NCBI GenBank assembly: GCA_001898425.1
Contig: MKTV01000069.1
Coordinates: 32,870-78,138, forward strand
Source of the DNA: Rhodospirillales bacterium 69-11
GTDB taxonomy: Bacteria; Pseudomonadota; Alphaproteobacteria; Acetobacterales; Acetobacteraceae
Direction: 5' to 3'
Length of the DNA: 45,269 bases
A program made the position numbers and the translations under genes. Position 1 is the stretch's first letter; the number at the start of each line of letters is the position of its first letter. A model generated the notes under the pieces. That model searched no databases. It had not been told where the DNA came from and was given only the letters and a program-made list of their open reading frames with translations. Below are positions 33,865 to 41,800 of the stretch, in pieces.

Positions 33865-34150
33865 GTGTCATGGCCGACGCAGGCCGGCCTTCCAGGACGT
33901 CCACGGCGGCACGAGCGTTCCGAGACCACGAAGGAAGACATGGATGGCCGGCCTTCGCCGGCCATGACACGGGGGCGCTCGCCGGCCGTGACACGGGGGC
34001 GCCTGCCGGCCATGACGCGGGGGTGCCTGCCGGCCATGACGCGGGGGCGCCTGCCGGCCATGACACGGGAGCGCTTGCCTGCCACGACGCGGGGGCGCAT
34101 GCCGGCCGTGACGCGGGGGCGCATGCCGGCCGTGACGGCGGAGGCCTCCA
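33865..34150. repeat. 24-bp tandem repeat array and inverted palindromic repeats between mreC and mreD
   Basis: The 327-bp spacer between mreC and mreD contains an imperfect inverted pair (left arm from about 33865, right arm TGGATGGCCGGCCTTCGCCG starting 33941 and ending 33970). A head-to-tail array of a 24-bp unit of the GCCGGCCATGACACGGGGGC type follows. Copies start at 33957, 33981, 34005, 34029, 34053, 34077 and 34101, with a partial eighth at 34125. The array ends at the mreC stop codon (34151-34153). Because 24 is a multiple of three the array stays open in several frames. The unit is a piece of the dispersed GTGTCATGGCCGG repeat. Confidence 0.93.
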
Positions 34151-38902: not shown

Positions 38903-39631
38903 CTACATCTTCTTGCCCACCCAGACCACCCGGCCGATCGCCACCAGGTGCTCGACCCGGCCAGCCGGGACCATGTCGCGCTCGTAATCCGGATTGTCGC
39001 TGATCAGGACGAGCGAACCGTCCAGCTTCCGCTGCACGCGCTTGACGAGGCGCTCACCGTCGACCTCCAGCACGTAGATGCCGAACAGGGCGAATGCGCG
39101 CTGCGTGGTATCGAGCAGCAGGATGTCGCCATCCTTGATCGTGGGAGCCATCGAGTCCCCGACCGCCCGCTCGAGCGCGATCGCCGCCGGATCGATGCCG
39201 ATCTCCTCACGCACCCAGTCGTTGCGGAAGGCCATGTAGTGGGAGCCGCGGGGATCGGACGGGAGCTGCGGGGACGCGCCGGCGGCAGCGACGCTGTCCT
39301 GCGATGGCAGCAGGACGAACTCCTCGAGCCCCGGCACGTCGCGCTCCATCCGCCCAGGCCCGGGAGACGTGGGACGGAGATCCGGCGGCTCCCCCTCGCC
39401 CGTCGCGAGCCAGCCGACCGAGACGCCCGCCGTGCTCGCCAGGGCGACGAGCCGCTCCCGGCTGGGTTCGGCCTCCCCCTTCAGCCACTTCCGAAAAGCG
39501 GAGGGTGAAACACCCATCGCGCGCGCCAGCCGGTCGGCACTCGGCCATTGCCGCAGAATGTCGTGCAACCTGGCAACGAATTCAGCTTTCTCGCTGCCGT
39601 TGGTTCGCAATTTTTCACTCTGACCCGACAT
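38903..39631 (-). CDS. S24-family repressor (helix-turn-helix plus LexA/CI-like C-terminal domain)
   Basis: The 242-residue protein has an N-terminal DNA-binding region (residues 15-75: LHDILRQWPSADRLARAMGV, then SPSAFRKWLKGEAEPSRERL) and a C-terminal S24 peptidase fold. The serine is in VGDSMAPTIKDGDILLL (S160) and the lysine in GERLVKRVQRK (K197). An Ala-Gly pair at 117-118 (VAAAGASP) lies about 42 residues before the serine, a plausible self-cleavage site as in LexA, CI and UmuD. It is transcribed away from a Ner-type gene, the layout of Mu-like phage control regions. ATG 39631 is preferred (GGA six bases upstream); ATG 39640 and TTG 39649 are also in frame. It probably represses its own and the Ner promoter. 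Confidence 0.82.
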   Translation of the reverse strand: MSGQSEKLRTNGSEKAEFVARLHDILRQWPSADRLARAMGVSPSAFRKWLKGEAEPSRERLVALASTAGVSVGWLATGEGEPPDLRPTSPGPGRMERDVPGLEEFVLLPSQDSVAAAGASPQLPSDPRGSHYMAFRNDWVREEIGIDPAAIALERAVGDSMAPTIKDGDILLLDTTQRAFALFGIYVLEVDGERLVKRVQRKLDGSLVLISDNPDYERDMVPAGRVEHLVAIGRVVWVGKKM

Positions 39632-39767
39632 CTCTCTCATCCGTGACAATCGTCAAAGCCACAACCTCTCCACTCGACACTTTTCGCCTATTTTCCACGC
39701 GTTTCCTGCGGACTATGAGGAGATGCCTGCGACTCCCAACCTAGCCGAATCGTCGGAGACAGTCTTT
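39632..39767. promoter_or_regulatory. Divergent promoter/operator region between S24 repressor and Ner-type genes
   Basis: This 136-bp region is less GC-rich than its surroundings and separates two oppositely transcribed regulators. The dyad TGACAATCGTCA (39644-39655; TGAC-N4-GTCA) lies at the repressor start and is a candidate operator. A T-rich block (TTTTCGCCTATTTTCC, 39681-39696) could be part of a promoter. A CGGAGAC ribosome site (about 39754-39760) serves ATG 39768. Sites are predicted by eye only. Confidence 0.5.
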
Positions 39768-40037
39768 ATGGAGAATTTCGTCCCTTCAACAAATGTTCCG
39801 GAGACTCGGGATGAAGACTGGCATCCCGCGGACGTTCTCGCAGCTCTGAAGAAACGCGGTCACACCCTGGCCGGATTATCGGTCGCGAACGGTTACCATC
39901 CGACGGCCGCCGGAAAAGCCCTCAAGCGCCCCTGGCCTGCGCTCGAACAGATCATCGCGGACGCCCTCGGCCTTCGACCCATCGCCATTTGGCCCAGCCG
40001 GTATCGCAACCAGCCGACCGAAGATGGCGGTTCCTGA
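39768..40037 (+). CDS. Ner/Nlp-type DNA-binding protein
   Basis: The 89-residue protein closely follows the Ner family (Mu Ner, E. coli Nlp/SfsB): DEDWHPADVLAALKKRGHTL, then the helix-turn-helix LAGLSVANGYHPTAAGKALK (residues 34-53), then RPWPALEQIIADALGLRPIA and IWPSRY. Ner in phage Mu shuts down early and repressor transcription. ATG 39768 has GGAG nine bases upstream; an in-frame ATG at 39723 has its GAGGAG directly abutting and is less likely. It is divergent from the S24 repressor, but no transposase or other phage genes follow: the next 263 bp are empty and then comes a response regulator on the other strand. It may be a domesticated phage switch. Confidence 0.87.
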   Translation: MENFVPSTNVPETRDEDWHPADVLAALKKRGHTLAGLSVANGYHPTAAGKALKRPWPALEQIIADALGLRPIAIWPSRYRNQPTEDGGS

Positions 40038-40300: not shown

Positions 40301-40669
40301 TCAGGGCTGGACCGGGTGGCCCTCGCGCATCACGCGCTCCACGGTCTCGAGCAGCGCAGTCAGGCTGAATGGCTTGGTGACGAAGGGGCGCGGCTGATCG
40401 CCCAGGCGCTCCATCCGCGCCGGATCGCCGGACATCAGGATCACCGGCACGCCGGACTGGTCGGCCTGCGGCAGCAGCCGGACGTCCAGCCCGCCGGGCA
40501 AGGTGCAGTCGAGCAGCATCAAGTCGATCCCGCCGCGGTCCAGGCGCGCCATCGCCTCCGCGGCAGTCTCCACAAGGCTCGTCTCATACGTGTCGTCGAG
40601 CGCCGCGGCGACGACTTCGGATACCAAGGGGTCATCCTCAACGACGAGGATGTGCGACCTGCCTGTCAT
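40301..40669 (-). CDS. Stand-alone response-regulator receiver domain protein
   Basis: This 122-residue protein is a receiver domain only, with no output domain. The acidic pocket is E11-D12-D13 (ILVVEDDPLV), the phospho-acceptor D54 (LMLLDCTLPGG), the switch Ser S80 (ILMSGDP) and the conserved lysine K99 (FVTKPF). ATG 40669 has GGTGAG upstream; the longer open frame above it is not conserved in character. No sensor kinase lies nearby, so it is probably phosphorylated by a kinase encoded elsewhere and passes the signal by protein contact. The FSLTALLETVERVM C-terminus is typical of receivers associated with hybrid histidine kinases. Confidence 0.9.
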   Translation of the reverse strand: MTGRSHILVVEDDPLVSEVVAAALDDTYETSLVETAAEAMARLDRGGIDLMLLDCTLPGGLDVRLLPQADQSGVPVILMSGDPARMERLGDQPRPFVTKPFSLTALLETVERVMREGHPVQP

Positions 40670-40912: not shown

Positions 40913-41800
40913 TCAGGCGCGGACCTCCTCCTGCAGCGCCGCCTCGTAGACGCGGATGATGGAGCTCGAATCGTCCTGCCCCATCCCCATCCCGCGCGCC
41001 ATGCGCATCAGGTTCATCACCTGCGGCGCGATCACGCCCGGCACGCCGAGCTGGTCGGCCATCTCCAGGGCGAGACGCAGGTCCTTGTGGGCGAGGTCGA
41101 GGGCGAAGGTCGGCTGGAACTGCCCTTTCAGGGCCTTGCCGGCCATGTTGGCGTAGCCGCTCGACATCCCGGAGGCGTTGCGGATGACCGCGTCCAGCTT
41201 GCCGAGGTCGATGCCCGCCCGCTTGCCGAGCATGAGGGCCTCGGCGGCGGAGGCGAGGTTGCAGAAGGCGAGCATGTTGTTGATCAGCTTGGCGGTCGAG
41301 CCCATGCCGATATCGCCAAGGTGGATGACTTCGCCGCTGAACGACCGCAACAGCGGGAGCTGCTGCTCGAACAGCGCGGCGTCGCCGCCCACCATGATGA
41401 CGATCGTCCCATCCTTGGCCCGCGCGGTGCCGCCCGAGACCGGCGCCTCCAGCATGCCGATGCCCTTCTCCGCCATCGCGGCGGCGACCCGCTTCGCGGT
41501 GGCCGGCGAGTTGGTCGAGAGGTCGATGAAGACAGTGCCCGGCCGCGCGTGCGCCGCGATCCCGTCCGGGCCCATCGTCACCGCCTCCACCACACTCGGG
41601 ATCGGCAGGGAGGTGATCACCACGTCGCACTCGGCGGCAAGCTCGGGGAGGGTCGGCGCCGACCGCGCGCCCAGGCTCGTGCAGGCCTCGATGGCGGCCG
41701 GATCCAGGTCGAACACGACCACGTCGTGGTTCGTGTTGCGGATGATGTTGCGGCACATCGGCCCGCCCATGTTGCCGACCCCGACGAACCCGACCTTCAT
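40913..41800 (-). CDS. NAD(P)-dependent beta-hydroxyacid dehydrogenase (3-hydroxyisobutyrate/tartronate semialdehyde type)
   Basis: The 295-residue protein has the N-terminal Rossmann signature MKVGFVGVGNMGGPMCRNI. Next come VITSLP, the DLSTNSPATAKRV substrate segment, EAPVSGGTARAKDGT and the catalytic lysine K171 in GSTAKLINNML, the usual position in this family. It interconverts a beta-hydroxyacid and its semialdehyde (3-hydroxyisobutyrate, glycerate/tartronate semialdehyde or similar); valine catabolism or glyoxylate-derived carbon are both possible and motifs alone do not settle it. A strong AGGAGGG ribosome site precedes ATG 41800. The AEC permease gene lies 66 bp upstream on the same strand, so the two may be co-transcribed, with the permease moving a related organic acid. 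Confidence 0.9.
   Translation of the reverse strand: MKVGFVGVGNMGGPMCRNIIRNTNHDVVVFDLDPAAIEACTSLGARSAPTLPELAAECDVVITSLPIPSVVEAVTMGPDGIAAHARPGTVFIDLSTNSPATAKRVAAAMAEKGIGMLEAPVSGGTARAKDGTIVIMVGGDAALFEQQLPLLRSFSGEVIHLGDIGMGSTAKLINNMLAFCNLASAAEALMLGKRAGIDLGKLDAVIRNASGMSSGYANMAGKALKGQFQPTFALDLAHKDLRLALEMADQLGVPGVIAPQVMNLMRMARGMGMGQDDSSSIIRVYEAALQEEVRA

Follow-up and report, generated by a model that had tools for sequence, protein, structure and literature searches.

A divergent S24 repressor–Ner gene pair without a neighbouring phage in Acetobacteraceae that looks like a borrowed host switch

The stretch of DNA that we analysed (the window; 45,269 nucleotides from Rhodospirillales bacterium 69-11) carries two divergent genes separated by a short gap, one encoding a repressor of the S24 family and the other a protein of the Ner family. 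The locus comprises the following features.

38903–39649, minus strand: S24-family (CI/LexA-type) repressor gene; Pfam HTH_3 and Peptidase_S24; Ser166, Lys203 and Ala123-Gly124.
39676–39687, no strand: candidate shared operator GACACTTTTCGC, with the core CACTTTT, between the two genes.
39700–39709, no strand: CGTTTCCTGC, a weak repeat of CTTTTCGC, some 22 bases further on and recognized by eye.
39723–40037, plus strand: Ner (HTH_35) gene; Pfam HTH_35; PDB matches to EnrR and Mu Ner; the start is possibly the ATG at 39768.
39762–39776, no strand: degenerate remnant of the palindrome ATTCTC-N4-GAGAAT, covering the ner ribosome site of relatives.
40301–40669, minus strand: single-domain response regulator (Pfam Response_reg), which often adjoins the pair in relatives.
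40913–41800, minus strand: beta-hydroxyacid dehydrogenase (Pfam NAD_binding_2 and NAD_binding_11), which also often adjoins the pair in relatives.

The S24 open reading frame encodes 248 amino acids when read from a TTG at 39649; an ATG at 39640 or at 39631 may serve instead. The product consists of a Cro/CI-type helix–turn–helix (HTH) and a Peptidase_S24 domain, both scoring above the Pfam cut-off (HTH_3, 7.8e-08; Peptidase_S24, 4.1e-18), and it matches PHROG family phrog_4, 'transcriptional repressor' (1.4e-44). The first-pass annotation had reported an intact Ser160/Lys197 dyad. The dyad is present; that numbering counts from the ATG six codons in, and from the TTG the residues are Ser166 and Lys203. 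Together with an Ala-Gly bond (123–124) between the two domains they give the protein the hallmarks of a self-cleaving S24 repressor. With all of these residues intact, RecA-triggered self-cleavage of the window protein is possible. This does not hold throughout the lineage. Among the 15 S24 sequences of the window clade the serine is kept in 12, the lysine in 13 and Ala-Ala-Gly in 12, and the same three copies (L029, L031 and L036) have alanine in place of the catalytic serine and are without Ala-Ala-Gly. Since three of 15 copies have neither the serine nor the cleavage site, the DNA-damage trigger that had been proposed does not hold as a general feature.

The facing gene encodes 104 amino acids with an HTH_35 domain (2.5e-25; 88.7 bits against a curated cut-off of 25) and matches phrog_769 (3.1e-26). 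The best match in the PDB is EnrR (7f9h, 1.9e-19), with Mu Ner also matched (1neq, 1.7e-18). Against the SfsB/Nlp equivalog NF007670 the protein scores 72.2 bits, below the NCBI cut-off of 150. When compared with the nearest relative, a single sequence pair, codons 1–15 carry changes that are not codon-like, unlike those in codons 32–104, and the true start may therefore be the ATG at 39768.

This arrangement had been described as the control region of a transposable phage, an S24 repressor facing Ner, with no MuA alongside, and the open reading frames, the Pfam families and a MuA profile all agree with that description. The likeness to phages is borne out by 36 Ner loci on viral contigs, 31 of which have a strong MuA match and 16 a facing S24 match. 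Using a MuA profile drawn from 58 of 137 fetched Ner loci, we found no match at E<=0.01 in the window or in loci L022–L036, and none in the remaining window-type loci; on several contigs the flanks are short. A PHROG scan of eight neighbours in the window found no capsid, lysis or transposase family. The locus therefore has the repressor divergent from Ner of a Mu-like control region, without the MuA and phage genes after it. We also note two Ner–MuA loci (L104 and L123) on contigs titled Anaerolineales and Omnitrophota, which are either wide-ranging Mu-like phages or binning errors.

The flanks were said to be ordinary chromosomal genes, and the Pfam families of the neighbours that we tested confirm this: a glycogen/starch-synthase-like enzyme, the response regulator, the beta-hydroxyacid dehydrogenase, a membrane transporter and an FUSC protein. 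Further left in the window are genes that, from reading their sequences, we take to be mreB, mreC and mreD. A tandem array at 33957–34145, made up of 7.8 copies of a 24-base unit with 87% matches, lies in the gap on the left side of the mreC-like gene. Neither gene of the pair is followed by a close gene on the same strand; the S24 gene converges on the synthase gene and Ner on the response regulator.

Of 59 relatives, the 33 in the same genus include 11 with Ner and the 26 others include none. Twenty-eight genus members were searched for both genes: six have both, five only Ner, four only S24 and 13 neither. The Ner profile matches 34 of the 347 family genomes, seven of them with at least 124 bits and the best of the remainder with 81, and the S24 HTH is found at E<=1e-10 in six, five of these being shared with the Ner matches. 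From the 27 other Ner-bearing genomes of the family we fetched eight with wide flanks, and seven of these eight phage-type loci have MuA, L239 being the one without. The relatives are metagenome assemblies, most of which bear the label Acetobacteraceae, Rhodospirillales or Proteobacteria, with one Rhodopila sp. A further record (L076) is titled Asaia bogorensis; its contig matches G031, a genome placed in the genus of the window, and for this reason its label or binning is probably wrong.

In all, 20 genomes carry window-type genes. Both genes are open in eight (G000, G030, G023, G018, G019, G473, G475 and G271), the last of which (locus L073) comes from a different family within the class. 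One gene is broken in two more: G022 has a truncated Ner, and G547 an S24 protein without the lysine and with a partial profile match. Ner stands alone in five (G002, G014, G020, G021 and G031), with no S24 match genome-wide at E<=1e-10, although three of these five genomes are 64–80% complete. S24 stands alone in another five (G006, G008, G024, G029 and G440), with no Ner match genome-wide. In G020 an S24 pseudogene adjoins Ner (L028) and in G029 a Ner remnant adjoins S24 (L036; E 6e-6 to 9e-5), so that in these two genomes, at least, the single state results from loss.

The order S24–Ner–response regulator–dehydrogenase recurs, complete or incomplete, in more than one chromosomal setting: the window, L023, L024, L069 and L072 have one in common, L025 and L033–L036 a second, and there are others besides. 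In L072 (10520–10897) and L069 (2436–2846) ner has another response regulator downstream of it on its own strand, which may be a local output of a switch. The window-type Ner proteins form one clade (15 rows, 98/92), in a tree with few columns and many weak forks, and the S24 proteins also form one (15 rows, 100/99), apart from the phage copies. A lone S24 protein from a genome of family f111 (G790; L250, 8600–9340) is sister to the window clade; it agrees with the window protein at 37 of 60 HTH positions and has alanine for the catalytic serine, and its 13 kb contain no Ner or MuA match. In an rpoB tree built from 24 of 30 genomes (no rpoB match was obtained for five, and one fragment was omitted) the states with both genes, one or neither are intermixed, requiring nine changes for four states with many forks unresolved; it is no proof of vertical descent as opposed to transfer.

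Purifying selection acts on both genes. Between the window and its nearest relative, L023, dN/dS is 0.116 for S24 (0.065 for its HTH), 0.199 for Ner and 0.067 for the dehydrogenase, at dS values of 0.82, 0.74 and 0.48, respectively. Against L024 the ratios are 0.356 (HTH 0.086), 0.156 and 0.169. The HTH residues are almost invariant across ten S24 proteins. The first-pass annotation had allowed for the pair being strain-specific and always next to MuA in relatives. This is not what we find: the pair is locally syntenic across species, and none of the window-type genes in the 20 genomes stands beside MuA. That objection fails on the cross-species synteny, the absence of MuA and the purifying selection. 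The suggestion that selection has kept both regulators stands for each gene; it does not extend to an obligate unit, since ten of the 20 carriers have a single gene and two more have one of the two broken.

The gap between the genes contains a short element with the core CACTTTT. Of the 11 loci in which an S24 gene or pseudogene faces Ner, ten contain it, 126–145 bases before the DWHP codon; dinucleotide shuffles gave a mean of 0.36 and a maximum of 3. Because the motif was chosen by inspecting the same loci in which it was counted, its fate in single-gene loci provides less circular evidence. It is absent in four of the five Ner-only loci, the fifth (L028) having the S24 pseudogene and the motif together, and it is absent upstream of S24 in four of the five S24-only loci, with L231 retaining it. 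The motif follows the pair and is a candidate operator common to the repressor and Ner.

The exact motif, RACACTTTTCRC, occurs once in each of G000, G030, G018 and G019, twice in G020 and once in G547, there away from the pair; G022, G023, G271, G473 and G475 have none. Over these 11 genomes five of the seven matches are at the pair, including the single match in G000, and the reversed control gives four in all and none in G000. With one mismatch allowed, and among the matches listed, there are 18 in G000 against nine for the control and five in G030 against two, the S24-only genomes being at the control level. We compared the surroundings of 16 of 17 further G000 sites with those of all four further G030 sites and saw no match; the motif has therefore led to no regulon and excludes none. 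No host gene controlled by the pair was found.

Other elements were considered. By eye, the second copy of CTTTTCGC is clearer in L028, L029, L031 and L032. The palindrome TTCTC-N4-GAGAA is present in seven of 15 loci (shuffle mean 0.008), the window copy being degenerate. Its longer form, ATTCTC-N4-GAGAAT, is found at the ner leader of G018, G019, G020, G023 and G271, with one copy elsewhere in each of G021 and G271; there are none in G000, G030, G473, G475 and G547, and controls gave zero. An RNA hairpin at the ner ribosome site has z-scores of -2.23, -0.94 and -0.51 in three relatives, which makes no strong case. The SOS-box pattern (GTTC-N7-GTTC or its reverse) does not occur between the genes in the six loci scanned; the one CTG-N10-CAG string in the window falls within the S24 reading frame. 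A sigma-70 scan found no promoter-like site.

A second pair of this kind occurs in another alphaproteobacterial family (f121), where S24 faces Ner in all four genomes examined (L213, 8578–10512; L214, L216 and L219), with no MuA in 18–19 kb and with conserved chromosomal surroundings. It resembles the window pair in the facing genes and the absence of MuA. It differs in forming a separate clade of its own in both trees, near MuA-linked phages, in having a same-strand PAS_5-domain gene after ner with an ALAD gene adjoining, and in the S24 protein, which has no clear Ala-Gly at the aligned cleavage position. Since the clade is separate, pairs without a phage appear to have two origins or more. 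One f121 genome (G155) also carries a Mu-like locus with MuA elsewhere (L249).

A link to valine catabolism, suggested by the resemblance between the window dehydrogenase and a HIBADH gene close to the f121 pair, was rejected. The window dehydrogenase scores below every NCBIfam equivalog cut-off displayed (205.9 against 291.6 for HIBADH) and is 35–38% identical to the f121 enzymes; on these grounds it and the f121 HIBADH are not taken to be the same gene.

Our preferred reading, to which we give even chances, is that the two genes are the lysis–lysogeny pair of an old Mu-like phage, the rest of which has been lost, inherited with losses in the Acetobacteraceae and co-opted as a switch with its own candidate operator and an output in trans. 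The S24 protein would bind the CACTTTT element between the genes, repress ner and regulate its own gene. If S24 were to fall in level or cleave itself, Ner would be made and would shut off s24, giving a switch with two states. Because no operon in the window seems to start with either gene, the output would have to act in trans, with Ner (or S24) acting on host genes as do SfsB and EnrR. Binding, mutual repression, bistability and targets are here proposed by analogy with phage Fc02, where the repressor and ner are under opposing promoters according to the accessible part of PMC9936078, and with SfsB and EnrR, as far as the accessible parts of PMC8987985 and PMC10899749 describe them. Several results count against this reading: the single or broken genes in 12 of the 20 carriers, the 13 genus members with neither gene, the constraint on the HTH in S24-only genomes, the exact motif that five genomes lack and G547 has elsewhere, the three S24 copies without the catalytic serine and the negative sigma-70 scan. 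Half-systems make up half of the carriers, so the switch is dispensable or each half has a use of its own. The pair looks like a borrowed, dispensable host switch, and the first-pass interpretation as a whole is partly supported. A more far-reaching version strikes us as distinctly unlikely: that alphaproteobacterial hosts have, on two or more independent occasions, taken over a full phage decision switch (cleavable repressor, Ner and operator) as a bistable memory, possibly set by DNA damage, that governs host genes through Ner in trans.

The single-gene genomes invite another explanation, unlikely but with an appreciable chance, namely that these are two separately useful host regulators of phage origin, Ner being like SfsB or EnrR or a nucleoid protein, S24 having other targets and the layout being incidental. 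Five Ner-only and five S24-only genomes among 20 fit such regulators, as do the low dN/dS values of the HTH in S24-only genomes (0.022 and 0.046) and of Ner-only copies (0.10 for L027–L030). Moreover, the S24-only genomes retain the HTH with the motif gone from upstream of the gene in four of five cases, and S24 must therefore have other sites or uses. Nevertheless, an incidental layout sits poorly with an intergenic motif that tracks the pair and with both genes side by side in eight genomes, even in another family (G271, L073), and the pseudogenes make some of the single states look recent.

That the HTH is the most conserved part of S24 would also suit a retained immunity module, in which S24 (with Ner) blocks Mu-like phages that have the same operators. 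Mu-like phages with S24 repressors do infect the family (L236), and the patchy pattern of gain and loss would be in keeping with an arms race. We consider this quite improbable; the tree contains 21 MuA-linked repressors, a small phage sample, and none of them agrees with the window at more than 32 of the 60 HTH positions, and the core motif lies upstream of Ner in just six of the 59 phage or f121 loci scanned.

Slow decay of a functionless prophage remnant that has survived by chance is very improbable. It would account for the S24 pseudogene of L028, the Ner remnant of L036, the truncated Ner of L032 and the apparently broken S24 of L069, for the 13 of 28 genus members with neither gene, and for the S24 dN/dS of 0.48 in L029–L031 (0.54 in the C-terminal part, against 0.13 for the window and L023). 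Ratios of 0.12 and 0.20 at a dS of about 0.8, an almost invariant HTH and a conserved intergenic element are hard to obtain without selection. Recent prophage decay is disfavoured because the pair is common to several species, is found in two or more chromosomal settings and is subject to selection; the window pair is not strain debris.

Co-option of a lone Ner is already in print, going by the accessible parts of the reports on SfsB (PMC8987985) and EnrR (PMC10899749). Our searches of open-licence papers turned up no facing repressor–Ner pair that had outlived its phage. A phage-derived pair common to related hosts would be a two-gene form of Ner co-option, new as far as the papers found in those searches go. 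Two lineages, together with the natural loss of either partner, amount to a comparative experiment on what becomes of a switch after its phage is lost and which half the host needs, and the short candidate operator can be tested with reporters.

Among known systems, the transposable phages (Mu and the D3112-like Pseudomonas phages MP22 and Fc02) share with the window the repressor facing Ner. The c repressor of MP22 is 35.1% identical to the window S24 protein over 99%, and Mu Ner is 55.2% identical to the window Ner over 64%. Mu's own c repressor is not of the S24 kind. The window pair differs from these phages in being without MuA and phage genes and in being syntenic among related hosts. 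SfsB/Nlp of Enterobacteria is a co-opted Ner and, like the window protein, a chromosomal Ner-family regulator without a phage, as presented in the accessible part of PMC8987985; the SfsB loci that we fetched have no facing S24 match, and the window Ner falls below the SfsB cut-off. EnrR of Edwardsiella piscicida, the best PDB match of the window Ner, is likewise a Ner-like DNA-binding protein in use by its host; it differs in acting as an H-NS counter-silencer, according to the part of PMC10899749 that was accessible.
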